From IMG/VR virus record IMGVR_UViG_3300036857_000168, positions 1-22,039 of that record: 22,039 nt of DNA, one strand, 5' to 3'. The number at the start of each line of letters is the position of its first letter. The stretch's first letter is position 1. This document shows, piece by piece, positions 1 through 22,039 of the stretch. The position numbers and the translations under genes were made by a program. Source of the DNA: a virus. The notes beneath the pieces were generated by a model. The model saw only the letters and a list, made by a program, of their open reading frames with translations. It was not told where the DNA came from and made no database searches.

Positions 1-127
1 CCGGGCTCGTTCGCGTCGCCGCCGAATCTAAAAACCCCGTTTTCTACCCCGGCAACACCCTTCCGTCGTTCGGCCAAGGCAAACGCCAACGCCCTCCCCC
101 TACCCCCATTGCACTCGGCACAAGAGG
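1..127. repeat. Terminal direct repeat, left copy (circular contig overlap)
   Basis: These 127 bases are identical to 21913-22039. The repeat lies inside the HNH gene reading frame, which continues without interruption across the joined ends. The simplest reading is that the contig is circular and was written with an assembly overlap. A length of 127 equals a common maximum de Bruijn k-mer size. It is therefore probably not a biological terminal repeat. Confidence 0.9.
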
Positions 128-296
128 GGACGAGGTTGGCCGGGTCGAAGGGCGCACCGCCGAGCGCGAGCGGTACCACATGGTCGGCTTGAGTCGCCTT
201 CGCTTTACCGCACCAATGGCAGGGCGGCGAGCCCGCCAAGACCCGAGCCCGAGCTACCCGATAGCGCCGCCCGTAGTTACGGCTTGGGCTTGGCAA
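1..296 (-). CDS. HNH endonuclease, N-terminal part (gene continues across circular junction)
   Basis: Joined across the circle (296 down to 1, then 21912 down to 21822) this frame encodes about 128 aa, beginning at a TTG codon (296-294) because an in-frame stop lies upstream and no ATG or GTG is available. The protein shows a classic phage HNH core: a basic N-terminus (RNYGRRYR), a CxxC pair at C26/C29, the catalytic DH at residues 38-39, Asn54 in NLVPSC and a second pair C59/C62 followed by N63. It overlaps the upstream Cys/His gene by 20 bases and the terminase start by 23. HNH proteins encoded beside the large terminase are known components of cos-type packaging machines, and that role is inferred here. 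The start codon is uncertain. The residues after about 85 look unconserved. Confidence 0.85.
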   Translation of the reverse strand, partial: MPSPSRNYGRRYRVARARVLAGSPPCHWCGKAKATQADHVVPLALGGAPFDPANLVPSCAECNGGRGRALAFALAERRKGVAGVENGVFRFGGDANEP

Positions 297-453
297 TGGT
301 CGTCGGTGGCTCGGGTTCCACGTCCACCCACTCTTCGGTCTCTTGGTCGAGCCGTTGTTGTTGCGCGCAGAGTCGGCACCAACGGCGGTGGCCGCTGGCG
401 TTGTAACTCCAACCGATTAGGTGGGGGCAGACCCGCTGATACTTAGTCGGCAC
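277..453 (-). CDS. Small Cys/His-rich phage protein (58 aa)
   Basis: Translation from GTG at 453 gives 58 aa. It contains CPHL, then about 16 residues later CRLC, which is a C-x-H...C-x-x-C spacing compatible with one bound zinc. The C-terminus is acidic and proline-rich (WVDVEPEPPTTIAKPKP). The start overlaps the end of the upstream 45-aa gene by 11 bases and its tail overlaps the HNH start by 20 bases, so the three are probably translationally coupled. An in-frame TTG at 507 would extend the protein, but that would overlap most of the upstream gene. Function is unknown. Its place directly before HNH and terminase suggests a packaging-operon accessory role. Confidence 0.65.
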   Translation of the reverse strand: MPTKYQRVCPHLIGWSYNASGHRRWCRLCAQQQRLDQETEEWVDVEPEPPTTIAKPKP

Positions 454-580
454 GATTGCGAATGGACGCCGAGCGCCGCGCCTTGCTCTTTGACGTGCTG
501 GACCCAACCTGCTTGCCCGTCGTCTTGTTCACAATCTTGTACGGCTTGCGGCCCTTGCCTTTGCGAACCGTGTACGGCAT
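443..580 (-). CDS. Short basic phage protein, MPY-type (45 aa)
   Basis: This ATG frame encodes 45 aa starting MPYTVRKGKGRKPYKIVNK and containing TTGKQVGSSTSKSKA. It closely resembles a very common family of tiny actinophage and other phage proteins with a 'MPYxVxK...YxIVNKxTGKxVG...TKxKA' pattern, whose function is not known. The protein is strongly basic (many Lys and Arg), so it may bind DNA. It is the first gene of the leftward packaging operon and starts just inside the divergent region with its GGCAC repeats. No good Shine-Dalgarno sequence is visible, so leaderless or weak initiation is possible. The family match is made from memory of the sequence pattern only. Confidence 0.72.
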   Translation of the reverse strand: MPYTVRKGKGRKPYKIVNKTTGKQVGSSTSKSKARRSASIRNRAD

Positions 581-695
581 GGCGTAAGCTTACGGCACAG
601 GACGGCACCCCGCAGCGCGGCACCCGCCATTAATCATGGCGCACCCCGCATCGTGGCACCCCGCCTAGCGCAAGCTAACCGGAGGTATTAGCCCG
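581..695. promoter_or_regulatory. Divergent intergenic region with GGCACCCCGC direct repeats
   Basis: This 115-bp region separates the leftward packaging operon from the rightward capsid operon. The pentamer GGCAC occurs at 594, 604, 619 and 655, and GGCACCCCGC is exact at 604-613 and 655-664 with variants at 619-627 and 640-649. The CACCC cores begin at 606, 621, 642 and 657, so the 15-base spacing is used twice. The only AT-rich stretch is ATTAATCAT at 629-637. A GGAGG at 681-685 serves the capsid gene. The region must supply divergent promoters and could also hold cos or terminase-binding repeats, because HNH and terminase lie just downstream. Neither role is proven by the sequence. Confidence 0.55.
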
Positions 696-1919
696 ATGTT
701 GAACGCCGTGCTACAGCGATTGGTGGACGAACGAACGCACGTCCACGAGCAGATCGATCTAGTGCTCGCGGGGGCGGTGGACGAAGACCGCGACCCGAGC
801 GAGTCCGAGCAGGAAACGCTTAAGCGGCTGCGCTCCCGGGCCGAAGAGCTTGAGCCTCAGATCGACTCGCTCTTGGAAACCGAAGAGGTCCGCCAGCGGG
901 CGAAAGACGCACGCGGATTTCTCACCCGTGCGACACCGGCCAAGCCCGACGAGGGTAAGCCCGAGCCCGAGGCGAACGACTACGAGAGCTTCGCCCACTA
1001 TGCCCGCGATCTCGTACTGACCCGCTCGGATCGGGTCGGCCATTCCGTCCCCGTGCACATCCGCCACGCCGCCGCCGAGCGGCTAGAGCGGGCGGTTTCG
1101 CAGGTCCTCACCGCCGACGTGGGGCCGCTGATCCAGCCGCAGTACATCGCCCAGATAATGCAGCTAATCGACCGCGCCCGGCCGCTCGTGAACGCCTCGA
1201 ATCGGATCGGGCTCGCCTCGGGCAAGCTCGAATGGCCGCGCATCACCGAAGTCCCCGAAGTCGGCGTCCAGGCGACCGAGAAAACCGAGGCCGGTGACGG
1301 CTCGATGACGGTGGACGTAATGAACACCGTCGCCAAGACCTACCTCGTGGCGGCCAATTTCTCTTGGCAGACGATCCAGTGGTCAAACCCGGACGCACTC
1401 CGCTTGTGGTTCGACCTGGCCGGGGCGAGCTATGCCCGCCAGACCGACGCGGCGGCGGCGGCCGTCATCGAAGCGGCCGACACAACGCCGACGCCGGTAG
1501 CGAGCGCCGACCTCGAAGGCTGGATGGCCGCAATCGCGGCGGCGGCTGGCGAGGTATACGCCAACACCGGGCGTTTCCCCGACACCGTGGCCGCCGCTCC
1601 CGATGTGGGCTTCGCATTGCTCGGGCTCGTCTCGGGGACCGCTCCCGTTTTCGTCGCCACCGGCGCCGGAAACTTCGGCGGAAACTTCCCCGCCATCGGT
1701 GGGTTGCGCTTCGTGATCTCGAACGCACTCACGGCCGGGACCGCCATCGTCGGTGATTTCTCGGCCCTGCTATCGGCCGAGACGCCGGGTAGCCCGGTGG
1801 AAGCCCGCGTGGTCGAGCCCTCCATCGGCGGGCTCGAAGTCGGGATCATCGGCGCCTTCGCGTGTGCGATCACCGATCCGGGCGCGTTCGCGGAATTGAC
1901 GGCACCGGCAGGGCCGTAG
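696..1919 (+). CDS. Major capsid protein, HK97 fold
   Basis: The 407-aa product forms the icosahedral shell. Residues 1 to about 75 are charged and heptad-like (coiled coil), matching the N-terminal delta/scaffolding region of HK97-type capsid proteins that is normally removed by the prohead protease. From about residue 100 the sequence follows the phage capsid family, including LTADVGPLIQPQYIAQIM, a central Ala-rich helix region, GGLRFVISNAL and a C-terminal domain ending GAFAELTAPAGP. The start is supported by GGAGG at 681-685. A protease of the matching S78 family is encoded at 17883-18479 but on the opposite strand, whereas it normally sits directly upstream. Confidence 0.93.
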   Translation: MLNAVLQRLVDERTHVHEQIDLVLAGAVDEDRDPSESEQETLKRLRSRAEELEPQIDSLLETEEVRQRAKDARGFLTRATPAKPDEGKPEPEANDYESFAHYARDLVLTRSDRVGHSVPVHIRHAAAERLERAVSQVLTADVGPLIQPQYIAQIMQLIDRARPLVNASNRIGLASGKLEWPRITEVPEVGVQATEKTEAGDGSMTVDVMNTVAKTYLVAANFSWQTIQWSNPDALRLWFDLAGASYARQTDAAAAAVIEAADTTPTPVASADLEGWMAAIAAAAGEVYANTGRFPDTVAAAPDVGFALLGLVSGTAPVFVATGAGNFGGNFPAIGGLRFVISNALTAGTAIVGDFSALLSAETPGSPVEARVVEPSIGGLEVGIIGAFACAITDPGAFAELTAPAGP

Positions 1920-1921
1920 CG

Positions 1922-2122
1922 ATGACCAAGTACCGCGAACGACGGGAAAGCGGGATGTACGCCAACCCGCAACCACCCGGCGATGACGACAAGTACGACG
2001 TGGAACCGGACCTCGACGCCATGAGCAAAGACGAGCTTTTGGCGTTGGCGAAAGAGCGGGGCGTAAGCCCGGCCAATGCGACCATGACTAAAGCCGAGCT
2101 AAAGGCGGCGCTCGCCGGATGA
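1922..2122 (+). CDS. Small head-module protein with SAP/Rho-N-like C-terminus
   Basis: The 66-aa product has a polar N-terminus with a DDDKYDVEPD stretch. Its C-terminal helix-hairpin-helix-like segment, LDAMSKDELLALAKERGV followed by MTKAELKAALAG, resembles the SAP/HeH/Rho-N motif of nucleic-acid-binding proteins. Small proteins with this ending are common just after capsid genes in actinophages, but their role is not established. The start is two bases after the capsid stop. An alternative ATG at 1955 has a GGGAAAGCGGG stretch upstream and would give 55 aa. The end overlaps the next gene by four bases. Confidence 0.75.
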   Translation: MTKYRERRESGMYANPQPPGDDDKYDVEPDLDAMSKDELLALAKERGVSPANATMTKAELKAALAG

Positions 2123-2843: not shown

Positions 2844-3286
2844 TGGCCGTAACGCCGACGGTGCCCAACCCCGTGATCCTCGACAACGCGGCGCTTTCTA
2901 TCGACGGAAAGCCGCTCGACTGTTTGACCAACCACCTAGAGATTTCGCCCGATACGTCGGTCACGACCCTGGACACCTTTTGCGGGTCGCGCGACTACCC
3001 GGGCATCACCAAGTGGTCTCTCGTCGCCACCCTGTACCAGTCGTTCGACCCCGACGCGACCGAAGACGTGCTGAGCGCGGCCGTTGCCGGGGGCGAGCCG
3101 GTCCCCTTCACGGTGCTTCCCGACCGTAGCCAACCGGTCGGACCGACCAACCCGGAGTTTTCCGGGGAGGTAATCCCGCAGCCTTACGCGCCGATCAATG
3201 GCGACGCCGGGGACGCCTCGACCATCGAGCTTGAATGGTCAATGACGGGGCCGCCCGCCAAGGCGGTGGCGCCCGCCGGTGGGTGA
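2843..3286 (+). CDS. Major tail tube protein (putative)
   Basis: The ATG shares one base with the preceding TAA. The 147-aa product is beta-rich, with segments such as NAALSIDGKPLDCLTNHLEI, TKWSLVATLYQSFD and ASTIELEWSMTG. The final strand resembles the closing strand of small siphophage tube proteins, which polymerise as hexameric rings to make the tail tube. It is shorter than many tail tube proteins, which fits a compact genome. Position between the terminator-like gene and the tail chaperones supports the call. Confidence 0.75.
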   Translation: MAVTPTVPNPVILDNAALSIDGKPLDCLTNHLEISPDTSVTTLDTFCGSRDYPGITKWSLVATLYQSFDPDATEDVLSAAVAGGEPVPFTVLPDRSQPVGPTNPEFSGEVIPQPYAPINGDAGDASTIELEWSMTGPPAKAVAPAGG

Positions 3287-3982: not shown

Positions 3983-4095
3983 CGCCGCGCGAAGTAGACG
4001 AGCTAACGGCGGTCGAATACGCCGCGTTCTGGCGCTACGCCGAACGTGAAGTCCGCGAAGCCGAACGCGAACGGCGGAAGGCTCGCAAGCGCTAA
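3979..4095 (+). CDS. Tail assembly chaperone, gpT-like downstream frame
   Basis: An ATG at 3979, in an ATGA overlap with the G-like gene, gives 38 aa beginning MTPREVDELTAVEYAAFWRY and ending in a basic run. The frame is open well upstream of that ATG and reads ALAAFCRYWRMTPREVDELT, which is typical gpT-domain sequence. The true product may therefore be a G-T fusion made by -1 frameshifting rather than a separate 38-aa protein. I see no canonical slippery heptamer in the overlap. CCT TTT G at about 3959-3965 is the nearest weak candidate. The stop shares one base with the tape measure start. Confidence 0.7.
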   Translation: MTPREVDELTAVEYAAFWRYAEREVREAERERRKARKR

Positions 4096-5897
4096 TGGCG
4101 GGCGTTGCCGAAGTCGTCGTTAAGTACGTTGCCGACACGAAGCAGCTAGCGAGCGGGCTAGCGAAAGCCGAGAGCGCTTCCAAGTCCACCGGCGAGCGAA
4201 TCAAAGGGATGGGCAAGGCGGCCGTGGTGGCGGCGGGTGCGGCCGGGCTCGGGGCACTCGTCGCCACCTTCAAGGTCGGGATTGACGAATTTAGCGAGGC
4301 GGCCAAGGTCGGCGCCCAGACCGAAGCGGTAATCAAGTCCACCGGCAGGGCGGCCAACGTCACGACCAAGCACGTCGAAGACCTCGCCGGTGCGCTTATG
4401 CAAAAGAGCGGCGTGGACGACGAGGCGATCCAAAGCGGCGAGAACATCATCCTCACCTTCAAAGGCATTCGCAACGAGGTAGGAAAAGGGAACGACGTTT
4501 TCGACCAAACGACGAAAGCCGCGCTCGATATGTCCGTCGCGCTCGGGATGGACGTTACTCAAAGCGCAATGCAGCTAGGGAAAGCCCTTAACGACCCGGT
4601 TAAGGGCATGACCAAGCTACAGCGAGTCGGCGTCACTTTCACCGACGCCCAGAAAAAGCAAGCCGAAGCGATGGTGAAAAGCGGCGACGTAATGGGCGCG
4701 CAAAAGATCATCCTCAAAGAGCTAAACTCGGAATTCGGGGGCTCGGCCGAAGCCATCGGCAAGACCCTTCCCGGCCAGATAAACATTCTCAAGCAGAATT
4801 TCTCCAACCTGGCCGGGCAGCTAGTGGGCACGCTCGCCCCCGCTTTCGGCAAGCTCGCCGGTTTCATGGCGAAGCATCCCAAGCTCTTCCAAGCAATCGT
4901 GATCGCGGTGCTCGCCCTCTCGGCCGCAATGGTGGCGCTCAACGTCGCCCTTGCCGTTACCGCCGCGCTCGAAGCTTCCGTCCTACTCCCGGCGCTGGCC
5001 GTCGTCGCCGCGCTGGCCGCCTTCGTCGCCGTCGCCATTCTCGTCTACAAGCATTGGGGCGATATCACCGACGCGATGGGCCATTGGTGGGACGTGCTCA
5101 AGAGCACGATCCTCGGGGCGTGGAAGAAACTGTCCGACGCCGCCGGGAGCGTTATGGACGGGATCAAAAAGGCGGCCCAAACGCTGCTGGCGTGGCTCAA
5201 GACGAATTGGCCGTACCTCGTCGGCATCCTCGCCGGTCCCTTCGGGCTCGCCGTCGCCGCCATCTACAAGCATTGGGACAAGATCACCGGCGCTATCCAA
5301 GACGGCTTCGCCGCCGTTAAGCGGGCGATTAGCGCCGGGGCCGATACCGTCGTCGGCTGGGGGAAGAGCATCGCCGGGTGGATCAAAAGCGGCGTTGTCG
5401 CCGGGCTAAGCGGGATCGGCGCCGCCGCTTGGGGCGTGGTGCGCAACATCGAAGCGGTCTTCCTCCAATTCAAAAACACCGTGCTCGGCTGGGGCTCGGC
5501 CATCGGCGGGTGGATCAAAAGCGGAATCGTCACCGGGATAACGGGCGTCGGGAAAGCGATCTGGGAGATAGTGCGGCCCGCCGTCAATACCGTTATCAAG
5601 GCGATAAATGCGCTCGGCCATTTCTCCGTCAAAAAGCGCAAGCTCCCGGGGCCGATCCCCGACATTCCCGGCTTCGACGTAACGCTCTGGAAGATTCCAC
5701 TCCTGGCCGGGGGCGGGATCGTGACCGAGCCGACCCTAGCGCTTGTGGGCGAGCGTGGCCCCGAGGCGGTCGTTCCGTTGTCCGGTAGCTCGCCGGTCGG
5801 CGCTAGCTACACGCTCAACCTGTACGCGCGCCAAGTCAACCCGGCCGATATCGCCTGGGGCTTCCGGCGGCTCGAATTGCTTAGGGCGGGCCGATGA
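4095..5897 (+). CDS. Tape measure protein
   Basis: This 600-aa protein, the largest in the genome, sets tail length and is threaded inside the tube. The N-terminus has helical repeats (KYVADTKQLASGLAKAES) and a domain with TFKGIRNEVGKGNDVFDQ. A long hydrophobic span lies at about residues 265-320, followed by Trp-rich internal repeats, with YKHWGDIT versus YKHWDKIT and GWIKSGVVAGLSGIG versus GWIKSGIVTGITGVG. The C-terminus has the common tape-measure signature GGGIVTEPTLALVGERGPEA. The gene overlaps the chaperone by one base and the next gene by four. Its length predicts a short tail of roughly 90 nm by the usual 0.15 nm per residue rule. Confidence 0.93.
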   Translation: MAGVAEVVVKYVADTKQLASGLAKAESASKSTGERIKGMGKAAVVAAGAAGLGALVATFKVGIDEFSEAAKVGAQTEAVIKSTGRAANVTTKHVEDLAGALMQKSGVDDEAIQSGENIILTFKGIRNEVGKGNDVFDQTTKAALDMSVALGMDVTQSAMQLGKALNDPVKGMTKLQRVGVTFTDAQKKQAEAMVKSGDVMGAQKIILKELNSEFGGSAEAIGKTLPGQINILKQNFSNLAGQLVGTLAPAFGKLAGFMAKHPKLFQAIVIAVLALSAAMVALNVALAVTAALEASVLLPALAVVAALAAFVAVAILVYKHWGDITDAMGHWWDVLKSTILGAWKKLSDAAGSVMDGIKKAAQTLLAWLKTNWPYLVGILAGPFGLAVAAIYKHWDKITGAIQDGFAAVKRAISAGADTVVGWGKSIAGWIKSGVVAGLSGIGAAAWGVVRNIEAVFLQFKNTVLGWGSAIGGWIKSGIVTGITGVGKAIWEIVRPAVNTVIKAINALGHFSVKKRKLPGPIPDIPGFDVTLWKIPLLAGGGIVTEPTLALVGERGPEAVVPLSGSSPVGASYTLNLYARQVNPADIAWGFRRLELLRAGR

Positions 5898-6748
5898 GCG
5901 AACGCCCTTACGAGCCCATCGAGTGCGAAACGCTCGAATACACAAACCCCGACGGCGACTCGATTCGCGTCCGAATGCTGGTAGGCGTAGCGGGCCGGAT
6001 GATGGCGCCCGCCAATCTGACTACCGTGGCGATCCCCCAAAGCGATGGCTCGGCGTTTCTCGGGGCCGACTACCTGGCGCGCGCGGTTACGGTGCCGGTC
6101 CCCTTCCCGGGCTCGCTACTCGACCGCGACGAGCTTCGCCGCTGGGCGAAGGTGCTTGACCCAAAGCGCGGCGAAGGCGTCTTGGCGGTCGTACAGGGCG
6201 AGTGGGCCGGGCGCCAACTCGTCTGCACCTACGAGGCCGGGCTAGACGCGCTTGAAGAGCAGGGCGACGTGCAAACCGGGACGCTGCTTTTCCGGGCCGC
6301 GTGGCCGTACTGGCAGGACCCCGACGATTCGGAAATCGACGTGGCCCAGGGCGGCGCTTTGGTCAAGTGGTTCCCCTTCCTACCGCTCGTCTTGGGCGCG
6401 TCGGATGCCTTCGCCGGTTTCACCATCGACAACGACGGCGACGCCACCGCCTGGCCGGTCGTGGTCGTGAACGGGCCGGGGCTCGAAGTCGAAGCCCGCA
6501 ACGAGACGACCGGCGAGCGCTGGCACGTCAACGGCGCCCTGCTGGGCGGCCAGACGATGACGGTCGATACCCGGCCGGGCCACAAGACGGTCGATATCGC
6601 GGGCGCCAACGGCTTCCCCCGGCTCGCCAGCGGCTCGAATCTCTGGGGGCTCGCGCCGGGGCCGAATCGCGTCACCGTTTCGATGGCGGCCACCGATCCG
6701 ACTAGCCTTATCCGCTTCACTTGGCGGCGCAATTGGCTAGCGGCCTAA
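5894..6748 (+). CDS. Distal tail protein (Dit-like minor tail protein)
   Basis: The 284-aa product follows the tape measure with an ATGA overlap, the standard place for the distal tail protein that forms the hub at the tail tip. Visible features include a beta-rich N-terminal half (GDSIRVRMLVGVAG, DYLARAVTVPVPFPG), a DRDELRRWAKVLDPKRGEG segment and a galectin-like C-terminal half with GFTIDNDGDATAWPVVVV and TMTVDTRPGHKTV. The phrase about 'nodGDapawPv' followed by a vDtrpG strand is typical of siphophage tail proteins of this kind. Its last 28 bases may overlap the next gene, depending on that start. Confidence 0.83.
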   Translation: MSERPYEPIECETLEYTNPDGDSIRVRMLVGVAGRMMAPANLTTVAIPQSDGSAFLGADYLARAVTVPVPFPGSLLDRDELRRWAKVLDPKRGEGVLAVVQGEWAGRQLVCTYEAGLDALEEQGDVQTGTLLFRAAWPYWQDPDDSEIDVAQGGALVKWFPFLPLVLGASDAFAGFTIDNDGDATAWPVVVVNGPGLEVEARNETTGERWHVNGALLGGQTMTVDTRPGHKTVDIAGANGFPRLASGSNLWGLAPGPNRVTVSMAATDPTSLIRFTWRRNWLAA

Positions 6749-7827
6749 TTGCCCCCGAAGCCGTCGTCCCGGCATTCGAGCTTGTGGCCGCCGACTGGCA
6801 AACACCGCTCGGGCTAATCGAAGCCTACGAGCACGCGACGATAGCGGCCCGCTACAACGCCGTCTCTAGCTGGGAAATCGTGCTCCCGACCGAGGGCAAG
6901 GGCGCCAAGCTCTTACTCGGCGCCGACCGGCCCCGGGTGCTGGTACGGGTGCGGGGTTCGATTTTCCGCTCGGGGCCGGTGCTACGGGTCGAGCGGACGG
7001 CCGATTTGGACGGCGATTTCCTCACCCTCTCGGGCGTTGACGATCTCGTCTGGCTACAACGGCGGCTCGCCCATCCGACACCGGCGCTTGCGGCACCGCC
7101 CTACAACACGCAAGCCTATGACGCCCAGGTCGGCGCAGCCTCGACCGTGATAGCGGGCTACGTCAATCGCAACCTTGGCCCGCTGGCCGTCCCCGCCCGC
7201 CAGCTAGCGGGCTTCACGGTCCCACCGCCGCCCGCCTTCGGACCGACGATCTCCGTCCAAGCCCGCTACGACAACCTTCTAGATTTCGTCGCCCGGATCG
7301 CCAACTCGGCGGGCGTCGGGATCACCGTCCAGGACCTCACCTTCCAGGTCTTCCAGCCGAGCGGCGAGGCGGTCTTTTCGGTCGAGCTTGGCACGCTCGC
7401 CGGGTGGACGACGACGCGCGAAGCCCCGGACGCCAACTACGTCTATGTGGCCGGGCAGGGCGAGGGGACAGCGCGCACGATCCGGGAGTATCAGGACGGG
7501 CAAAGCTACCTCGATTGGGGCCGGGTCGAGACCTTCCAAGACCGGCGCGATACCAACGACCCGGCGCAGCTAGACCAAGCGGGCGCCGAGGCGTTGGCCG
7601 CCGGGGTGAAAGCGCCGACGGTCGATATGGAAGCGCTCGACACCCCGGCGCAGGAATTCCTCACCGATTGGAACCTCGGGGATATCGCTACCGCCTACGT
7701 CGGCGGCGAGCAGGTGCGCCAGATCGTGGCCGAAGTCGATATCGAGCTAGAGGGCAACGCCCCGGCTCGAATCACGCCGGTACTAGGGGGGCCGGTGCTA
7801 GAGCCCGACGATGCCCCCACGCCCTGA
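6721..7827 (+). CDS. ReqiPepy6 gp37-like tail-hub protein
   Basis: The 368-aa product resembles the siphovirus ReqiPepy6 Gp37-like family of tail-associated proteins found in many actinophages. Matching features are an opening strand WQTPLGLIEAYEHATIAARYNAV, a fELvLP-type strand (WEIVLPTEGKGAKLLLG), a segment with VLRVERTADLDGDFLTLSGVDDLVWLQRRLAHPTP, and a late NYVYVAGQGEG. The role is probably structural at the baseplate, joining hub to fibres. The frame opens with TTG at 6721 or TTG at 6733. No ATG is available near the boundary, so the start is uncertain. It overlaps the following gene by 17 bases. Confidence 0.8.
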   Translation: MAAQLASGLIAPEAVVPAFELVAADWQTPLGLIEAYEHATIAARYNAVSSWEIVLPTEGKGAKLLLGADRPRVLVRVRGSIFRSGPVLRVERTADLDGDFLTLSGVDDLVWLQRRLAHPTPALAAPPYNTQAYDAQVGAASTVIAGYVNRNLGPLAVPARQLAGFTVPPPPAFGPTISVQARYDNLLDFVARIANSAGVGITVQDLTFQVFQPSGEAVFSVELGTLAGWTTTREAPDANYVYVAGQGEGTARTIREYQDGQSYLDWGRVETFQDRRDTNDPAQLDQAGAEALAAGVKAPTVDMEALDTPAQEFLTDWNLGDIATAYVGGEQVRQIVAEVDIELEGNAPARITPVLGGPVLEPDDAPTP

Positions 7828-8314: not shown

Positions 8315-8326
8315 ATTGGAGGGGAA

Positions 8327-9244: not shown

Positions 9245-9248
9245 CGCG

Positions 9249-9368
9249 ATGCCCGCACGCCTCGCAAACGTAGGGGGCGCCGCCCTTGACGTAGGGGGCG
9301 AGCCGATAGCGGTGGCGCCCACGCACGAGACAACGGAGGTATGCCCACATAGGAGGGCCGCACTATGA
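9249..9368 (+). CDS. Possible 39-aa protein before endolysin
   Basis: This frame starts four bases after the preceding stop and ends in an ATGA overlap with the endolysin start. It encodes MPARLANVGGAALDVGGEP followed by 20 more residues. The close packing, full occupation of the gap and stop-start overlap argue that it is real. Absence of a Shine-Dalgarno and a composition without clear domains argue against it. A GTAGGGGGCG sequence occurs twice in it (9270-9279 and 9291-9300). If it is not translated, the gap is simply the endolysin leader with AGGAGGG at 9351-9357. Confidence 0.4.
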   Translation: MPARLANVGGAALDVGGEPIAVAPTHETTEVCPHRRAAL

Positions 9369-10345
9369 CACAACCGCTTGAGTGGTCCATCGGTCCCGGG
9401 CCACGCCCGCACAACAACTCACGCCTAACCCGCACGCTCTACGCGCCCGACAACCCGAACCAAAAGACGCAAGCCGACGGCAAAGACGTTCAAGCCCTAA
9501 AGCGCATGGTGAGCCGGGCGGGCTTTTGGGACTGGCAGGACTTCGACCGCAGCTATACGAACGCCTTTGCCCACGGGGCGACGGGCAAGACGGGCTCGGG
9601 GCCGGGCGTGGACGGACTTCGCAAAGCGCTCGGGATCGGGGATGGCTCGGGCACGCTCAACGAGCGCTGCTATCACGCCTTGCTCTACGGGAAGGTGCCG
9701 AAGACCGATTGGCGCGGGACGAGCAAGCCCAACGCCGGGGAGTGGATTTGCGACGCAACCTCGGCGCAACTCCTAGCCGAGTACGACGCCGCTTGGAAGG
9801 CCGACAACCCGAGCCCTAAGCCCGAGCCCGCCGGGAAGCCCCGCGATACGGCCATGGGCCACCTGGCCGCCCGCGTCGGCTATACCGAGCAACCGGCGGG
9901 CTCGAATTGCGACAACCGCTCGGACGGAATCCGCACCGCCCAAACGAAGACCGCCGGTGGGGGGACGTGGTTGCTCTACCAGCCGTGGTGTGGGTGTTGG
10001 TGCTTCTACGCGCTACAGGCGGCGGGGGTGCAAAGACTCGGCTCGTGGATGGCTTCGGTGGCGTCCATCGAGGGCTACGCCAAGTCGAAGAGCTATTGCT
10101 TTACCGGCTGGACGACGGACCGCACCCGAGCCCGGCCGGGGGACCTCGTGTGCATCGGCGGCTACGGCCAGCACGTCGAGACGGTGCGGGGCAAGCCTCA
10201 AGCCGACGGCGGGCTACCGACCTACGGGGGCAACACTTCGAGCGGGTCGGGCGGCTCGCAATCAAACGGCGGCGGCGCTTACGCACGCGTGCGATACCCG
10301 AGCGAGGTTCGGGGAATCGCGCTCGTGCGCTACCCGGGGGAGTGA
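9365..10345 (+). CDS. Endolysin: peptidoglycan-binding-like N-terminus plus CHAP-like cysteine hydrolase
   Basis: The 326-aa product has AGGAGGG seven bases upstream. Residues about 35-140 (DVQALKRMVSRAGFWDW, VDGLRKALGI) form a peptidoglycan-binding-like domain, followed by a Pro/Lys linker (DNPSPKPEPAGKP). Residues 165-326 look like a CHAP or NlpC/P60-type cysteine hydrolase, with QPWCGCWCFYAL carrying likely catalytic Cys209, GQHVETV carrying His270, and TYGGN carrying Asn290. There is no signal peptide, so export would need the small membrane protein downstream. It should cleave host peptidoglycan at the end of infection. Cleavage bond specificity is not determinable. Confidence 0.85.
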   Translation: MTQPLEWSIGPGPRPHNNSRLTRTLYAPDNPNQKTQADGKDVQALKRMVSRAGFWDWQDFDRSYTNAFAHGATGKTGSGPGVDGLRKALGIGDGSGTLNERCYHALLYGKVPKTDWRGTSKPNAGEWICDATSAQLLAEYDAAWKADNPSPKPEPAGKPRDTAMGHLAARVGYTEQPAGSNCDNRSDGIRTAQTKTAGGGTWLLYQPWCGCWCFYALQAAGVQRLGSWMASVASIEGYAKSKSYCFTGWTTDRTRARPGDLVCIGGYGQHVETVRGKPQADGGLPTYGGNTSSGSGGSQSNGGGAYARVRYPSEVRGIALVRYPGE

Positions 10346-10652: not shown

Positions 10653-10689
10653 ACTCACCACCGCCGTCAAGATCACGAAGGGGGCTAGC

Positions 10690-11664: not shown

Positions 11665-11671
11665 ACCGGAG

Positions 11672-11962: not shown

Positions 11963-12160
11963 ATGGCCGAACGATTGCTAACGCTCGATAGGCTGGCGAC
12001 CCGTTGGGGGGTGCCTTGGGATGTGGTGCTCGACCTCGCCCGCCAAGGCAAGCTAAAATCCGTCCAGGTCGGCTGGGACCGGTTCTACCCCGAATCCGCC
12101 CTAGCCGAATACCTCGAATCGAAAGGGCTAGCATCCGATGAGTATTCGCACGAGGACTGA
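11963..12160 (+). CDS. Excisionase-like helix-turn-helix protein
   Basis: The 65-aa product fits the small MerR/HTH_17-type DNA-binding fold, with LLTLDRLATRWGVPWDVVLD as the HTH and GKLKSVQVGWDRFYPESALA as the wing and following helix. It is encoded directly upstream of and overlapping the integrase by 23 bases, the usual arrangement of an excisionase or recombination directionality factor. AGGGGGGAA lies four bases before the ATG. It could instead act as a regulator of the integrase promoter. Confidence 0.78.
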   Translation: MAERLLTLDRLATRWGVPWDVVLDLARQGKLKSVQVGWDRFYPESALAEYLESKGLASDEYSHED

Positions 12161-13238
12161 CGCCCGTGGGCGTACCTCGCACCAAGTCCGACTACCCGGC
12201 GAGCGTGCACGCACGTTTCGCCACCACCGCAACGCCGAACGCTACGAGACGAAGCGCAAAGAGGCTCGGGCTAGTGGGGAGCCGGGAGCGGCGGCCCCGA
12301 TAACGCTCGCCGCTGCGCTTGAGGGGGCCATCGGCCGATGGCTGGCGGCCAAGAGTCCGGCCCCCTCAAGCGTTACCGCCGCCAAGAGCCGAGCCGGTTT
12401 CTGGACAACCGCCGGGCTCGGGGAAACGCGGCTCGACCGGCTCGACCTCGTAACGTGCGAGGACGCCATCGTCAGTTACGCGGCCGACGCCCCGGCGGCG
12501 GCCAAAGTCTCGTTGGAGTGGTTCAAGCGGGGGCTACGGGATGCCCAACGGCGACGGCAGGTGTTCGACCCCGCGCTACTGAGCATCCCGCCGATTCGGG
12601 TGGAGGGCCGGGAGGGAATCGCGCTCGACCTAGACGAGCTACAGGCGTTGGGCTCGTGGTTCCCTCCCCATATCAACCGCTTCCCCGGGATCGTCGGCAG
12701 CATCGGCTTCCGCATCGGGGAAGCGCTCGGCTTGACCGAGGACCGGATCGACCTCGACGCCGGGCAGGTGTTCATTCCGGCGAGCATGTGCAAAGAGGGG
12801 CGGGCGAAGACCATCGCCCTAGCCGACTTCGAGCGCGCGCTTATCGCGGAACAGCTACTCGCGCGCTCGCCGGGCTCGGCGTACCTCTTCCCGAACCCGA
12901 ACGGCCACCGCTGGGACGTGTCGCACTTCCACCGCAAGGTCTGGCGCCCGGCCCGCGAAGCCGCCGCCCGCACGTTGCGGGAAAAACGGAACCTGCCCGA
13001 GTGGGAACCGACCCGTTTCGACTTGCTTGTGCCCCACGACTTGCGGCACACTGGAATTTCCGCGATGGCGGCGGGAGGTATGCGCCCCGAAGTGATCGCC
13101 AAGCGTGTCGGACATAGCGACGGTGGAAAGCTCATCCTGAGCCGCTACCGGCACCTTTTCCCCGACGAGATGGGCAGCCAGCTAGCCGCCTACGGCGCCT
13201 GGCGCTCGGCCCGGCTGGCGACGGCGGTGGGCTCGTGA
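12138..13238 (+). CDS. int: Tyrosine-family site-specific integrase
   Basis: The 366-aa protein integrates the phage into the host chromosome. The N-terminus (residues 1-50) is a basic arm-binding-like domain, residues about 55-145 are a SAM-like core-binding domain (TLAAALEGAIGRWLAAKSP), and the rest is the catalytic domain. Visible active-site residues are Arg192 (IGFRIGEALGL), Lys224 or Lys219 (CKEGRAKTIAL), His300 and Arg303 (PHDLRHTGISAM), His326 (RVGHSDG) and the nucleophile Tyr337 (SRYRHLFP). All catalytic positions seem intact, so the phage is probably capable of lysogeny. The start overlaps the excisionase-like gene. The next noncoding region has attP-like features. Confidence 0.95.
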   Translation: MSIRTRTDARGRTSHQVRLPGERARTFRHHRNAERYETKRKEARASGEPGAAAPITLAAALEGAIGRWLAAKSPAPSSVTAAKSRAGFWTTAGLGETRLDRLDLVTCEDAIVSYAADAPAAAKVSLEWFKRGLRDAQRRRQVFDPALLSIPPIRVEGREGIALDLDELQALGSWFPPHINRFPGIVGSIGFRIGEALGLTEDRIDLDAGQVFIPASMCKEGRAKTIALADFERALIAEQLLARSPGSAYLFPNPNGHRWDVSHFHRKVWRPAREAAARTLREKRNLPEWEPTRFDLLVPHDLRHTGISAMAAGGMRPEVIAKRVGHSDGGKLILSRYRHLFPDEMGSQLAAYGAWRSARLATAVGS

Positions 13239-16483: not shown

Positions 16484-16671
16484 GGCTCTACGTCGGCAAG
16501 CGGGTTCGGACGAAGAGCGGCCCGGGCCGGGTGGTCGAGATTCGTAACGCCGTGGACACCGTTCCGGGTCACGGCAAAGCCATTCGGGGGCTGGCGTACG
16601 CGGTGGTGGAGCTAGATAGGGGTGGCCGCCGCGCGTGCCCGGCCCTCGAATTACGAGAGGGGGACGAATGA
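16480..16671 (+). CDS. Small beta-rich hypothetical protein (63 aa)
   Basis: This 63-aa frame is joined on both sides by ATGA overlaps. The sequence (MRLYVGKRVRTKSGPGRVVE, then AYAVVELDRGGRRACPALELR) suggests a small SH3- or KOW-like beta barrel, with a Gly-turn GPGRVVE characteristic of such folds. Members often bind nucleic acid or protein partners. Its location between the nuclease and the RecT-like gene suggests a recombination accessory role, which is an inference. Confidence 0.62.
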   Translation: MRLYVGKRVRTKSGPGRVVEIRNAVDTVPGHGKAIRGLAYAVVELDRGGRRACPALELREGDE

Positions 16672-17366
16672 GCGAGACCCTGCCCGCAACGCGGGCACCC
16701 GAGCTTGACGCCATCGCGCGGCTCGGAACGTGGCTAGCGGCGTCCGAGGTTGAACACCCGGACGCGAAGCAACAAGGGGCGGCGGCGGCCCTGCGAATCT
16801 ACTTCGCCCGTGAGCTTGGGCTATCGCCGCTAGCGGCTAGCGAGCTTTCGGTTATCCGGGGGCGTCTGATCGTCTCGGCGAAGCTCCTGCGCGCCCGGGC
16901 GGCCCAATACGGCTACCGGGTGGTACGGGCTAGCGGCGACGAGACTTCGTGTACGGCCCAATTGATCGAACGCGAGACCGGCGAGCTAGTGGGCGAGTAC
17001 ACGTTCACGATGGACGCCGCCCGCCGGGCCGGGCTCGTGAAGGAGAAGAGCGGCTACAAGACGCACCCGGCCCGGATGTTGTGGGCGCGGGCGTCCAAAT
17101 TCGTGATTGACGACTACGCCCCGGAAGCCTCGTTGGGGCTCGTGCTCGAAGACGAGGCCGCCGAGATCACGGGCGAGGTAGTGGCCGAGCACGACGACGA
17201 CGACGAGCCCGAGCCGAAGCCTTCGCCCGAGTGGGAAGCCTTCCGTAGGGGCGAGGGTCCCTACCCGCCGAGTGTGGGCGCCGAGATCGAGCCCGACCCG
17301 CCCGGCCCGGCGCCCGCCGACGAAGAGCAAAGCCAATTCACGGCACCGGAACGCGATGGCGAGTGA
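16668..17366 (+). CDS. recT: RecT-like single-strand annealing protein
   Basis: The 232-aa product shows the RecT-type core at residues about 35-170: AALRIYFARELGLSPLAASE, then SVIRGRLIVSAKLLRARAAQ, TGELVGEYTFTMDAARRAGL and THPARMLWARASKFVID. The 'GLSPlaA...v..Grl..sAkl' and 'p..ML.aRA' phrases are hallmarks of phage annealing proteins. From residue about 180 the tail is acidic and disordered (HDDDDEPEPKPSPEWEA). It probably anneals complementary strands in recombination-dependent replication. A partner exonuclease was not identified, and the PD-(D/E)XK gene is resolvase-sized. Confidence 0.8.
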   Translation: MSETLPATRAPELDAIARLGTWLAASEVEHPDAKQQGAAAALRIYFARELGLSPLAASELSVIRGRLIVSAKLLRARAAQYGYRVVRASGDETSCTAQLIERETGELVGEYTFTMDAARRAGLVKEKSGYKTHPARMLWARASKFVIDDYAPEASLGLVLEDEAAEITGEVVAEHDDDDEPEPKPSPEWEAFRRGEGPYPPSVGAEIEPDPPGPAPADEEQSQFTAPERDGE

Positions 17367-17763: not shown

Positions 17764-17774
17764 CTAAGAGCGAA

Positions 17775-17802
17775 CACGGGCACCTTTCAGGGGGTGCCCG
17801 TG
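17775..17802. terminator. Bidirectional hairpin between convergent operons
   Basis: CACGGGCACC (17775-17784) and GGTGCCCGTG (17793-17802) form a perfect 10-bp stem with an eight-base loop, between the ends of the rightward early operon and the leftward packaging operon. A further 10-bp inverted repeat, AGGGGCGCCC at 17821-17830 with GGGCGCCCCT at 17857-17866, lies just inside on the leftward side. No T-run is present. Probable terminator for both strands. Confidence 0.75.
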
Positions 17803-17882
17803 ATCGCTACGCTCGAACGGAGGGGCGCCCCGTCGCAGGTCCTCACGCCGCTTCCAGGGCGCCCCTCGCTTGAAGCTTCGAG

Positions 17883-18479
17883 CTAGGGCGCCGGGGCCGC
17901 TTCGCCCGGAAGGGTGATCCCAACCGCCGCCAGCCGGGCCAGTTGCTCGGGCGGGATGGCCGGAAGCCCGGCGGCCAGGGGTGACGGGGAATTGCGGTGG
18001 GCCACCGCCGTCCCCGCGTAGGCCGGTTCCGGGACCAAGGACACGTCGGCCAGGTGACAGCGCTGGCGTAGTACCTGCCCCTCCGCATTGCGGCGCTCGA
18101 CGCGCGCGAGATCGGCAAAGCCGACGCTGAAACCGCCGATCATCCCTTCGTCCACGAGCGCCAAGGCGTGATCGCCAATCACCCCGTCCACGACCCGGAA
18201 GCGGCCCCACAAGCCTTCGTCGCGCTCGTGCAGGTCGAGCCCGCGCCCAACCCGGTCGGTCAGACCGTCCCGGTGCTCGAAGCGCAATTGCACTTTGTCC
18301 GCCGCCGCTAGCTGGCGCTTGAAGGCGCCCGGAGTGAAGACCTCCCAATAGGGCGGCCCGCCGGGGTCCTGCACGCGCGCCGGGGTGTTGTAGGGCACCA
18401 AGACGCCTTCCAGGATGCGGCCCTCGTCGCCCGCCAGGGCCGCATTCACCATTCGCCGGTGGATTTCAAGCTCGGCCAT
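17883..18479 (-). CDS. Prohead protease, S78 family
   Basis: The 198-aa product processes the capsid shell during maturation. Residues fit the S78 (HK97 gp4-like) family: an opening strand LEGVLVPYNTPARVQ, FTPGAFKRQL, catalytic His69 in LRFEHRD, catalytic Ser118 in GGFSVGF, and VSLVPEPAY with Glu151. The C-terminal tail is Ala/Pro-rich. It overlaps the portal gene by 14 bases and is the last gene of the leftward operon. Its substrate, the major capsid protein, is on the opposite strand about 4.7 kb away on the circle, which is unusual. Confidence 0.9.
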   Translation of the reverse strand: MAELEIHRRMVNAALAGDEGRILEGVLVPYNTPARVQDPGGPPYWEVFTPGAFKRQLAAADKVQLRFEHRDGLTDRVGRGLDLHERDEGLWGRFRVVDGVIGDHALALVDEGMIGGFSVGFADLARVERRNAEGQVLRQRCHLADVSLVPEPAYAGTAVAHRNSPSPLAAGLPAIPPEQLARLAAVGITLPGEAAPAP

Positions 18480-19710
18480 TCGCTGCTACCTCCAAGCTCG
18501 GGACGATCCCGCCCCAATCGATTGACGTTCCGCCGTAGCCGCCATTCCCGAGCCCCGGCGGCGTCGGCGTCTCGCGCTCTTCGGTGCCAGGGTCGGCCAG
18601 CGAGCCCGCCGAGCCGTGTGGCTCATCGATCAGATCGACCGCCTCGCCCTCGACCAAGGGCGGGAGATCGAAGACGGCCGCCCGATACTCGTCTTGGGTC
18701 ACCACCCCGTCGGCCAACGCCTTCGACCACACGCCCTGCTTGGCCGCCATATCGGGCGCGAGCAAAACGCTCGGGTCGAATTCGACCCACGAGCCCCGGG
18801 GTAGCCAGGTCGAGAGCGCGTTGCCGATCCCGCTGGCGCGCGGCATTAGCTCGCTCTTCCACCACATATCGAACAGCATCTCCGGGTTGGAGTAGTTGAG
18901 CCCCCCGGCCTGGTCCATGTTGAGTAGGAAGGCGGGCACCCCGAACGCCGCCGCGATCTGCTTCGCGTCCCACTCGCGCGTTTCCAGTAGGGCCAGGTCT
19001 TTCGGGCTCGTCGGCGTCGTCAGCGTGAAGGCGATATCCGAGGGGATGACCGCCGGGGCGCCGTTACGCTGGCCGACCCGGGCGAGCCACTGGCGCTGTA
19101 GGTCTTCGGCTTGCTCGCGGTCGAGTCGCCGCGTCGGCGGTTGCAGGATCGCCCAGGGGATACCGCCACCCTTGTACACGTCGGCCGCCAGCGCTTCGGC
19201 GGCGGCGGCGCTCTTCACGTTCCCGGCGTAAGCGGCCAACGCCGAGCTACCGCGAAGAGCGCCGTTCGGGTTGCGGGTGATCTGTAGTACGTCGTCCGGC
19301 TGTAGGTCGAGCCCACCGACCGAGTACAGCCGCCCGCCGCGAGGATCGGCGTCCACCGTCACTTGGTCCGGGTCGAGTACCGTCCAAGTTTGCGGGTAGC
19401 CGGTCGCGTAGCGGCTCGTCACCCACAGAAAGCCGTCGCCGCGCGAATAGATCGACCACACGAGCGCGAACAGCGCATCGCTTACCCCGTTCGGATACCA
19501 CACCGGGTCCGGGGTGGATACCCACAGGGGCTCGAAGCCGCCGCGAAAGCGAAGCGGCATCCCGGCGATCTGCTGGCTCGTCAATTGCAGACAGCGCGAG
19601 ACGGCGCCGACACGCTCGGGAAGACCGAATAGATAGGGGGGGAATAGTCCCGCCACATCCTCGGGTGTGATCGTGGCGGCTCGCTTGCGGATGCGGGGGA
19701 GCAACCGCAT
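18466..19710 (-). CDS. Portal protein, HK97 family
   Basis: The 414-aa product forms the dodecameric ring through which DNA enters. Supporting segments are AVSRCLQLTSQQIAGMPLRF, ALVWSIYSRGDGFLWVTSRY, LDPDQVTVDADPRGG, VLQITRNPNGALRGSSALAA, and a late FGVPAFLLNMDQAGGLNYSN, which is the 'fgVPp.ll......tysn' phrase of HK97-type portals. The C-terminus is Gly/Pro-rich and overlaps the protease start. No strong ribosome-binding site is visible before the ATG, and 33 bases separate it from the upstream gene. Confidence 0.92.
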   Translation of the reverse strand: MRLLPRIRKRAATITPEDVAGLFPPYLFGLPERVGAVSRCLQLTSQQIAGMPLRFRGGFEPLWVSTPDPVWYPNGVSDALFALVWSIYSRGDGFLWVTSRYATGYPQTWTVLDPDQVTVDADPRGGRLYSVGGLDLQPDDVLQITRNPNGALRGSSALAAYAGNVKSAAAAEALAADVYKGGGIPWAILQPPTRRLDREQAEDLQRQWLARVGQRNGAPAVIPSDIAFTLTTPTSPKDLALLETREWDAKQIAAAFGVPAFLLNMDQAGGLNYSNPEMLFDMWWKSELMPRASGIGNALSTWLPRGSWVEFDPSVLLAPDMAAKQGVWSKALADGVVTQDEYRAAVFDLPPLVEGEAVDLIDEPHGSAGSLADPGTEERETPTPPGLGNGGYGGTSIDWGGIVPSLEVAANGRA

Positions 19711-19743
19711 TGCCGAGAGTGTAAACCGAGAGCGCCAACGCCG

Positions 19744-19956
19744 CTAGTTGTCTAGTTGGATTACCTCGCCGTACTTGGCCAAAGAGCCGTAGCCGTTGGC
19801 CAAGACTCGGGCGGCCACTTCGGGATTGTCGTACTCAATCGCCGTCTTTGGCGTTGGAGCCCATCCGAGCCCGCCCTTGTGCCATCCGGCGTAGAGAATC
19901 GTGTTCGGCTCGGCCATTACGTCTTCGCCAAAGTCGAACCGGATTAGCCACGTCAT
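19744..19956 (-). CDS. Small hypothetical protein (70 aa)
   Basis: The start is the ATG at 19956, in an ATGA overlap with the upstream gene. The 70-aa product (MTWLIRFDFGEDVMAEPNTI, then AIEYDNPEVAARVLANGYGS) looks like a small alpha/beta fold. The final phrase KYGEVIQLDN resembles other small phage proteins of unknown role. It sits between terminase and portal together with the next small gene, a place where accessory genes are often inserted. Confidence 0.65.
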   Translation of the reverse strand: MTWLIRFDFGEDVMAEPNTILYAGWHKGGLGWAPTPKTAIEYDNPEVAARVLANGYGSLAKYGEVIQLDN

Positions 19957-20162
19957 ACCGGGTTGTTGCCCCACTCGTGGGGCGTGCCTTTCAGCGTTAC
20001 GGGCATGGTTGGCCGTAGCCGCCCCTCCCATATCGCCTTCGTTAGTACGCCGTTGGCATCGGCTACCGCATCGCCTATCGACTCATACGAGCCCACGAGC
20101 GTTATGGGGAATTCGTCGCCGTCGGCGTCTTCGAACGTTACGAGCGTGAATGGTCCTGGCAT
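19953..20162 (-). CDS. Small hypothetical protein (69 aa)
   Basis: GAGAGGG lies six bases before the ATG at 20162. The 69-aa product (MPGPFTLVTFEDADGDEFPI, then GSYESIGDAVADANGVLTKA) has alternating strand and helix segments and ends HEWGNNPV. It shares an overall length and strand-helix style with the gene that follows, but there is no convincing similarity. It is the first gene after the long noncoding gap downstream of terminase, so it may have its own promoter. Function is unknown. Confidence 0.65.
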   Translation of the reverse strand: MPGPFTLVTFEDADGDEFPITLVGSYESIGDAVADANGVLTKAIWEGRLRPTMPVTLKGTPHEWGNNPV

Positions 20163-20356
20163 TTGCTAGCCCTCTCTTTCTCGGGCTGGCGCTCTCGGTT
20201 GTCAAGGTGCAATGCCCGTGGTAATTCGGGCACACACATTTTACCGAGAATTTCGGGTGTTCGCTTAGCTGGCAACGAAAACGCGCCCCGTTTGCAGGGC
20301 TTTCATTCGCGTTTCCCCTGCAAATGAATTTTTACATTTCGCCTTCGCTGGCAACG
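20163..20356 (-). promoter_or_regulatory. AT-richer noncoding gap after terminase with shared motifs
   Basis: This 194-base gap interrupts an otherwise packed leftward operon. TTTGCAGGG (20291-20299) and CCCTGCAAA (20316-20324) form a 9-bp inverted repeat with a 16-base spacer. GCTGGCAACG occurs at 20268-20277 and 20347-20356, the latter abutting the terminase stop. TGCCCG/CGGGCA (about 20213-20232) is a small hairpin. The leftward strand has a TTGACA at about 20202-20207 and TAAAAT at about 20241-20246, but no well-spaced pair. The gap probably holds a promoter for the portal genes and a protein-binding site. Confidence 0.6.
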
Positions 20357-21844
20357 TCAGTAGATGCGCAGGGGCTCGCTCGCCCCGGCCCCCGCCTCGG
20401 CCAATTGCCACGCGCGCCACCACGCATTGCGGGCGGCGACGGCGGCGTCCACGAAGGCGCCGTCGTCGGGCCGGGCGAGACGAAGCGAGCCGTCCACGCC
20501 GAAGCGCACCCGGAGGGCGGCGGTGTGCTCTTCCAAGAGCGCGTGGTGATCGTGGGCGAGCCGGTTGCCCGACTCTTGGCCGACGATGGCCCGGTAAAAC
20601 TCGTTCGCGCTGGCCGCCTCGTTGTCGGCGCTCCCGTCCCAGGGCTCACACGGCAACCCGGCTTCGCGTAGCTCGGCGAACAGGCGCGGGCGAATCCGCT
20701 TCGGATGCACGATGGCCGCTAGCTCGTATTGCTCGGCGGCCGTCTCTAGCGTATGGCGAAGGTCCTGGTCCAAGGCGGCTTCCGAGCCCCAACCGAAGAA
20801 CACCGCCCCGTCCAGCGTCGCCCCGACCACCGCCAGCGTGCGCCGGAACGTCCCCTCGACCGCCAAGACCACTTCCGTCCCATCCGGCGGCGCCGGTTGG
20901 AAGGGGCACGCTTCCCAGGCGCCGGGCGGAAGCCAGCCGCTCGAAGTGTCCGTCCACTGGCCCAAGTGGTAGGTCAGAAATTCGCGCTGGCTCATGAGCC
21001 CGGCTTGCACCCCCAACGCCTCGGGCGTCAGGAAGCCCGCCACGAGCGCCGGGTTTGCCTTCCGCCAAGCGGCCCGGTCGAAGAGATCGCAACCGGGCGG
21101 CGCGGCCCATTCCAGGTACTCGACCCCGGCCGGTAGCTCGCCGTCGAGCGAGGCCGCGCGCAGCCGTTGCAGGATGTTCGGGTCAAAGCCGGGGGTACCG
21201 ATCCCAACGACGTGGGCATCGGGCCGCTTCCCGAGCCGGGCGATCAGTGACTCCACGATCTCGTCTTTGGCGAAGCCGATTTCGTCCACGATGGCAAGCG
21301 AGAAATTGAGCCCCTGGACGGCGGTGAGCTTCGAGGGATGGGCGCGGATGCGCGAGCCCGTCGGGCGGTACTCCAAGATTTGGTCGTGCGAGTACCAGCG
21401 CACGAGGTCCTGTTCCACCAGCGCCGGGCAGGATTCGACCATCCGCAACGCCGCCTCGACCAAGAGCCCGGCCTGGTCCTCTTTGGTGGCGACCACATCG
21501 ACTTCGGCGTAATCGTCGCCCCGGCAGATTCGTTCCAGCGCGACCGCCGCTAGAAAGGTCGTCTTGCCGTTGGCCGCCGGGAGTGAGACGAAGGCGGCGA
21601 GGTTGTCATAGAGGGTGGCGAGAATCTGGCGCTGGAATTCCGCCACCTTGATCGGGCGCCCCTGCCCGTGCCCGGTCGGAATCGTTAGGTACTTTTCGAC
21701 CCACCGTTTCGCGCGCGCGGCTTCGCTCTTCCAGCGCCAGCCGTGCCAGGGCGGAAGCTCGACTAGCCGTAGCGGCGCCTTCCGCCCCGGGGTAACTAGC
21801 TGGCCGTGGGCCGGTGTGGCTTTAGCTCGCGCCGATTGCGCCAT
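20357..21844 (-). CDS. terL: Large terminase subunit
   Basis: The 495-aa product is the packaging motor and nuclease. The ATPase domain shows Walker A at residues 87-96 (SLPAANGKTT, without the usual PR before NGK), Walker B at 183-188 (LAIVDE) and a coupling motif GIGTPG at 214-219. The nuclease domain starts at about 322 (VVLAVEGTFRRTLAVVG) and ends with PDDGAFVDAAVAARNAW (459-475). The first conserved Asp is Glu330 and the second acidic site (normally DP) reads HP at 380-381, so the nuclease centre looks altered. The HNH gene overlaps its start by 23 bases. No small terminase gene is recognised next to it. Confidence 0.92.
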   Translation of the reverse strand: MAQSARAKATPAHGQLVTPGRKAPLRLVELPPWHGWRWKSEAARAKRWVEKYLTIPTGHGQGRPIKVAEFQRQILATLYDNLAAFVSLPAANGKTTFLAAVALERICRGDDYAEVDVVATKEDQAGLLVEAALRMVESCPALVEQDLVRWYSHDQILEYRPTGSRIRAHPSKLTAVQGLNFSLAIVDEIGFAKDEIVESLIARLGKRPDAHVVGIGTPGFDPNILQRLRAASLDGELPAGVEYLEWAAPPGCDLFDRAAWRKANPALVAGFLTPEALGVQAGLMSQREFLTYHLGQWTDTSSGWLPPGAWEACPFQPAPPDGTEVVLAVEGTFRRTLAVVGATLDGAVFFGWGSEAALDQDLRHTLETAAEQYELAAIVHPKRIRPRLFAELREAGLPCEPWDGSADNEAASANEFYRAIVGQESGNRLAHDHHALLEEHTAALRVRFGVDGSLRLARPDDGAFVDAAVAARNAWWRAWQLAEAGAGASEPLRIY

Positions 21845-22039
21845 GCCAGACCCGAGGCCGTCGGATGTTGCCGGATCGGGCTACAGCCGATCTTGCAGGG
21901 GCGGATCGGAGACCGGGCTCGTTCGCGTCGCCGCCGAATCTAAAAACCCCGTTTTCTACCCCGGCAACACCCTTCCGTCGTTCGGCCAAGGCAAACGCCA
22001 ACGCCCTCCCCCTACCCCCATTGCACTCGGCACAAGAGG
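21822..22039 (-). CDS. HNH endonuclease, C-terminal part (continues from position 296)
   Basis: This is the other end of the gene annotated at 1-296. On the circle the frame runs from 296 to 1, then from 21912 to its TAA at 21824-21822. Bases 21913-22039 repeat positions 1-127 and hold the central portion (from the second Cys pair on). The unique part, 21912-21822, encodes the last 30 residues (SAPARSAVARSGNIRRPRVW and a short tail), which look unstructured and basic. The last 23 bases overlap the terminase reading frame in a different phase. Confidence 0.8.
   Translation of the reverse strand, partial: SCAECNGGRGRALAFALAERRKGVAGVENGVFRFGGDANEPGLRSAPARSAVARSGNIRRPRVWHGAIGAS
21913..22039. repeat. 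Terminal direct repeat, right copy
   Basis: Exact copy of 1-127, showing that the sequence closes into a circle of 21,912 bp. Seen directly in the sequence. See the left copy for interpretation as an assembly overlap. Confidence 0.9.

Follow-up and report, generated by a model that had tools for sequence, protein, structure and literature searches.

The genome of an uncultivated phage, held as IMG/VR record IMGVR_UViG_3300036857_000168 and analyzed here over the full 22,039 bases of that virus record (the window), raises the question of why certain six-base words built around AGCT never occur in it. A preliminary description had estimated about 100 AGCT tetramers by eye, had noted that only a few flank combinations were in use and had suggested escape from restriction as the likely cause. 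We find that the gap is real but that at least nine targets have been eliminated, AGCT being only one of them. Weighing all the evidence, we put at roughly 0.86 the probability that the AGCT gap belongs to a loss of restriction sites across the whole genome, driven by selection from host Type II enzymes, where the enzymes of the hosts and their identity are what we infer.

Missing AGCT words and other missing palindromes

The plus strand of the window contains exactly 100 AGCT tetramers, which fall into the flank classes originally listed and no others: GAGCTA/TAGCTC (34), AAGCTC/GAGCTT (31), CAGCTA/TAGCTG (19), AAGCTA/TAGCTT (9), AAGCTT (4) and TAGCTA (3). GAGCTC, CAGCTG, CAGCTC/GAGCTG and AAGCTG/CAGCTT are all at zero, as had been claimed. 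The absence of AAGCTG/CAGCTT makes the rule wider than an exclusion of G or C on both sides, and AAGCTC and GAGCTA are over-represented. To obtain expectations, synonymous codons were permuted in 300 shuffles that keep the protein and its codon usage. These shuffles predict 8.6 copies of GAGCTC, 10.5 of CAGCTC/GAGCTG, 5.0 of CAGCTG and 6.0 of AAGCTG/CAGCTT; for the four missing classes pooled they average 30.1 and do not fall below 18. For the SAGCTS words, none of which was found, the mean is 24.1 and the minimum 13. The comparison proposed at the outset, of hexamer counts with a Markov model and with protein- and codon-preserving shuffles, thus leaves the zeros well below expectation.

The gap shapes leucine codon choice in the manner initially described. 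After GAG, in-frame leucine is written CTA 17 times and CTT 13 times and never CTC or CTG; after CAG it is always CTA (12 pairs). Among all leucine codons of the window, CTC accounts for 38% and CTG for 17%, together 55%. The same rule holds outside a single reading frame, with 59 AGCT positions in codon phase 1, 14 in phase 0, 5 in phase 2 and 22 in non-coding DNA. We also observe that no CTN codon ever follows GAA where leucine comes next, and that the pentamer GAACT/AGTTC occurs once against 8.5 expected, with GAACTC and AGTTCG absent.

The depletion extends to other palindromic recognition words and goes far past both the Markov and the codon-preserving expectation. Among hexamers expected at least 8 times under a maximal-order Markov model, hereafter termed eligible, 9 of 20 palindromes are absent from the window, compared with 0 of 831 non-palindromes. 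The missing palindromes, with their Markov expectations, are GCCGGC (36), CGATCG (17), CTCGAG (15), GTCGAC (12), CCGCGG (12), TCGCGA (12), GAGCTC (11), GACGTC (11) and GGGCCC (10). Codon shuffles agree, giving observed/expected values of 0/38 for GCCGGC, 0/27 for CCGCGG, 0/16 for GGGCCC, 0/15 for CGATCG and 0/12 for GACGTC. GGATCC is likewise at zero across positions 1-22039, as are the interrupted palindromes GACNNNGTC (0/11) and CAYNNNNRTG (0/11). Words one mismatch away from the missing sites are in excess, including CCCGGC (131 observed, 69 expected), ACCGGC (53/27), CTCGAA (40/18), GAGCTA (34/17) and AAGCTC (31/14).

Lineage-specific words and a methyltransferase cassette

A family of uncultivated phages was gathered by searches with the terminase, portal, capsid, tail and endolysin proteins, and its members are designated L001 onward. 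Pooled over 37 contigs of the family, the eligible palindromes number 575, of which 67 are absent, as against 11 of 20,986 eligible non-palindromes; since the contigs are related, these counts are not independent of one another. The missing-word sets differ lineage by lineage. GGCGCC, present 48 times in the window, is at zero in L003, L007 and L015; CCCGGG, with 20 copies in the window, is at zero in L043 and L044. Conversely, L011 carries 47 copies of GAGCTC and L009 carries 131 of GCCGGC, both absent from the window. No eligible palindrome is missing from L017, L018, L063 or L071. As for whether relatives share the AGCT gap, the nearest one, L001 (6.6 kb), lacks all four classes while retaining CGATCG, TCGCGA and GGGCCC; other relatives differ.

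These relatives also separate the AGCT classes from one another: L013 keeps CAGCTC (53 copies) and lacks GAGCTC and CAGCTG, and L011 keeps GAGCTC and lacks CAGCTC. The missing AGCT classes are not coverable by any single degenerate palindrome. SAGCTS as one degenerate enzyme site was therefore rejected, given this separation and the additional absence of AAGCTG/CAGCTT (0/6.0).

Several other short words are depleted in individual family members. In L007, CTC/GAG is more than fivefold depleted in all reading phases (116 copies against 626 expected) and CAA/TTG is depleted about sixfold, whereas in L003 off-frame CAC/GTG stands at 0.39 of expectation. GGACC, a form of the AvaII-type site GGWCC, is at zero in L025, L028 and L035 against 34-60 expected, and two non-palindromic four-base words are scarce in L047 (AGAG 0/20, ACTG 2/40).

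A particularly clean contrast lies among L038, L039 and L043, which are 88-92% identical across about 18 kb. When all 2,080 hexamer classes are compared, exactly three turn out to be at zero in L043 and present at least five times in both sisters, and all three are palindromes: GAGCTC (17 and 14 copies in the two sisters), GCCGGC (14 and 14) and AGCGCT (7 and 8). The converse list, of words absent from both sisters and present in L043, is empty. Where L039 aligns with L043, none of 10 GAGCTC sites and none of 11 GCCGGC sites survives, in comparison with 20 of 24 CAGCTG sites and 56% of all hexamers. Both transitions and transversions occur as single changes at these sites, for example GCCGGC to GCGGGC.

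The same sisters differ in a DNA methyltransferase gene. L038 and L039 both encode a cytosine-5 enzyme (PF00145, E 1e-35, with a TIGR00675 match) that has a long variable middle part and lies at positions 246-1469 of L095, the contig of L038. L043 cleanly lacks the cassette and is continuous across the insertion point, near position 3045 of its contig, L096. The contig of L037, which keeps the sites, stops short of the cassette position. The simplest reading is that the L038/L039 methyltransferase would protect GAGCTC, GCCGGC and AGCGCT, a specificity suggested by the sites that are retained.

Asymmetric words and the weighing of explanations

CAGCTC and AAGCTG are not SacI or PvuII sites, and for them the original proposal of enzymes of this kind does not stand; they belong to a second, asymmetric layer that is poor in CAG/CTG. 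The window has 15.7 CAG/CTG trinucleotides per kb, L009 has 9.8, L011 6.6 and L036 14.4, and other contigs of at least 12 kb have 23-57. Fourteen phages were tested for off-frame CAG/CTG by codon shuffle. The observed/expected ratio is 0.43 in the window, 0.21 in L009, 0.27 in L011 and 0.18 in L036, and none of the other ten falls below 1.0. Because off-frame counts are depleted, the depletion acts at the DNA level. It is possible that this depletion, arising from avoidance of a protospacer-adjacent motif (PAM) of clustered regularly interspaced short palindromic repeat (CRISPR) systems or from another short-motif defense and not from restriction, simply leaves too few CAGCTC and AAGCTG words. 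CAGCTC is absent from exactly the four depleted phages among the contigs tabulated, and phage genomes depleted of PAMs have been described (PMC4246573).

We nevertheless give this account of the asymmetric part less than even odds, for three reasons. CAGCTA is doubled in the window (19 copies, 8.6 expected), so that the sixth base matters. The loss of CAG is uneven by context (CAGGC 0.35, CAGCG 1.00), which together with the doubled CAGCTA suggests several longer targets. Third, the asymmetric hexamers with an expectation of 8 or more include 76 listed enzyme sites, 6 of which are absent (CAGCTC, CTCCTC, GCAGGC, GACATC, CTCCAG and ACCCCA), compared with 2 of the 810 others (p 8e-6, in a test chosen post hoc). 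Splitting the enrichment by CAG/CTG content gives p of about 0.004 in each half, although enzyme sites may share compositional features. These observations are suggestive of elimination of asymmetric Type IIS/IIG-like sites as well, and CAGCTC is a possible match to the listed AceIII specificity, with no claim about the host.

Two simpler descriptions of the asymmetric words were considered. A plain trinucleotide explanation was not adopted outright, in view of the excess of CAGCTA. The degenerate palindromes GCMKGC, CTSSAG, RGGCCY and RGATCY fit the zero words but were not adopted either, as GCAGGC and CTCCAG are listed asymmetric enzyme sites.

For the palindromes, we favor restriction selection because the absences are palindrome-specific, lineage-specific and accompanied by the sister methyltransferase contrast; to this extent the restriction escape proposed at the outset is borne out. 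Under this explanation, several Type II restriction-modification systems would be present in the hosts, or would have been until recently, and for a phage with no DNA methyltransferase detectable in searches each remaining site would risk cleavage. Variants that lose a site, often through single changes of the kind seen in relatives (GAGCTC to GAGCTT or GAACTC), would outcompete the others until the count reached zero, and one-mismatch neighbors would accumulate as the sites vanished. The targets would be GAGCTC and at least eight more palindromes, to which CAGCTG can probably be added, with CAGCTC and AAGCTG forming part of a second layer of CAG/CTG-rich asymmetric words, tentatively targets of Type IIS/IIG enzymes or of another short-motif defense.

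Several points weigh against restriction selection. Taken alone, CAGCTG is weak (0/5, z -2.4), and AAGCTG/CAGCTT matches no hexamer enzyme in the list used. The methyltransferase contrast is a single phylogenetic comparison, and further gene differences separate the L038, L039 and L043 contigs. According to one survey, temperate phages show complete elimination less often (PMC6286503), and the window phage has an integrase. Finally, a search for hosts by portal and endolysin alignment in a genome collection returned pattern hits and no confirmed relative; with no host confirmed, no restriction gene was matched to any missing site. The endolysin gave no match among named phages, and naming a host through the terminase was abandoned, the nearest named phages being phiC31-like at 26% identity and too distant.

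Mutational decay is a very improbable alternative. Here 5-methylcytosine deamination in the lysogen would have removed the words, and the temperate gene content would indeed expose the phage to host methylation. The escapes in L043, however, include transversions (GCCGGC to GCGGGC) and not transitions alone, and decay gives depletion but not exact zeros, with the GC-rich neighbor CCCGGC in excess. In addition, the sisters that themselves encode a cytosine methyltransferase have retained the sites and not lost them.

A preference for particular codons or codon pairs, in which leucine codons after GAG and CAG are chosen for translation and the AGCT gap is a by-product, accords with the strongest visible effect, which is seen where GAG or CAG precedes leucine in frame (59 of 78 coding AGCT words are in that phase), but merits hardly any credence. 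A null that keeps codon usage and protein still expects about 30 of the missing words, and the gap is found in non-coding DNA and in the remaining phases as well. Palindromes are specifically affected, and close sisters in which nearly all other hexamers are alike have either 14-17 copies of GAGCTC or none. As a sole cause, codon usage or the codon-pair effect considered initially is excluded, both by the shuffles and because the pattern appears in every phase.

Gene content and relation to known phages

The window probably holds a complete genome with a unique part of 21,912 bp, because a 127-nt direct terminal repeat occurs at both ends, its left copy at positions 1-127 identical to its right copy at 21913-22039. 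On the plus strand lie genes for an HK97-type major capsid protein (696-1919; PHROG 2263, E 1.8e-42), a tape measure protein (4095-5897; PHROG 1535, E 4.3e-26), a minor tail protein of the Sipho_Gp37 family (6721-7827; Pfam PF14594, E 3.9e-44) and an endolysin (9365-10345; PHROG 21825, E 1.6e-11) with 85-86% identity to those of L038, L039 and L043. These are followed by a putative excisionase (11963-12160; TIGR01764, E 5.5e-4, under the curated cut-off), a tyrosine integrase (12138-13238; PHROG 1, E 5.3e-32) and a RecT-like annealing protein (16635-17366; PHROG 561, E 3.9e-17). A Dit-like tail protein is also encoded. The integrase points to gene content of the temperate type.

The minus strand encodes a head maturation protease (17883-18479; PHROG 80, E 5.5e-19; its best match is to PHROG 2263, in the N-terminal part), a portal protein (18466-19710; PHROG 12, E 6.1e-46) and the terminase large subunit (20357-21844; PHROG 9, E 1.3e-54). 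This block (17883-21844) runs opposite to the capsid gene. L001 has it too, facing RecT, whereas other relatives such as L017 have portal and then capsid genes on one strand, and the head module of the window looks rearranged. The named phages nearest to the window are mostly actinobacterial, at low identity: by terminase they are of the phiC31 group (about 26% identity), and in a tblastn search the annotated relatives of the Sipho_Gp37 protein are phages of actinobacteria. A tRNA search of the window found none. Searches with the methyltransferase families PF00145 and PF01555 gave no match in the window; other methyltransferase families were not searched one by one.

A survey by Rusinov et al. 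(2018, PMC6286503) reports that roughly one viral genome in ten shows complete or near-complete site elimination. This concerned chiefly orthodox Type II sites and was less frequent in temperate phages, and Type IIG sites were not seen to be avoided. The window resembles the cases in that survey in that orthodox Type II palindromes are eliminated from a double-stranded DNA phage genome. It departs from the reported trend in that its 21.9-kb genome, which carries a tyrosine integrase, has lost at least nine sites, and in that asymmetric sites also appear eliminated. The survey further found, by a hydroxymethylase comparison in coliphages, that modification of phage DNA relieves avoidance; L038/L039 versus L043 agrees with this, in one contrast among relatives and not in the window itself.

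By the same criterion of eligibility, the palindromes absent are 10 of 27 in Pickles13, 6 of 35 in R4, 5 of 23 in T7, 2 of 26 in phiC31 and none in lambda or PA6. The Microbacterium phage Pickles13 and the Streptomyces phages R4 and phiC31 thus wholly lack several palindromic hexamers, as the window does, including GAGCTC in phiC31, although their word sets are different and their genomes larger. The 9 of 20 missing from the window is somewhat above the first 22 kb of Pickles13 (7/22). The window is therefore at the strong end of the known range of avoidance and not outside it.

Phages that protect their own DNA are also known: lactococcal 936-type phages encode DNA methyltransferases that guard against restriction (PMC4190342), and Bacillus subtilis phages have multispecific cytosine-5 enzymes (cited in PMC4081073). 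The L038/L039 cassette resembles such protective enzymes in its long variable middle part and in the retention of sites that L043 has lost, whereas the window, unlike phages with protective methyltransferases, has no PF00145 or PF01555 match. Restriction-site avoidance itself has long been known; the points of interest here are the extent of the avoidance and the unusually clean methyltransferase contrast.

Which words are missing seems to record the enzymes that the hosts of each phage carry. A bolder reading, which we offer tentatively and hold to be rather doubtful, is that the family eliminates asymmetric Type IIS/IIG-like as well as palindromic targets as a record of host repertoire, and that it switches between site loss and a single multispecific cytosine-5 methyltransferase covering GAGCTC, GCCGGC and AGCGCT. 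This environmental phage family provides a natural experiment on restriction: the six-base words that stand at exact zero vary between close relatives, and one such difference goes together with whether a methyltransferase cassette is present. Sets of missing words could help to pair uncultured phages with their hosts, to predict the specificities of uncharacterized methyltransferases and to test for avoidance of asymmetric (Type IIS/IIG) sites, which the large survey did not find (PMC6286503).

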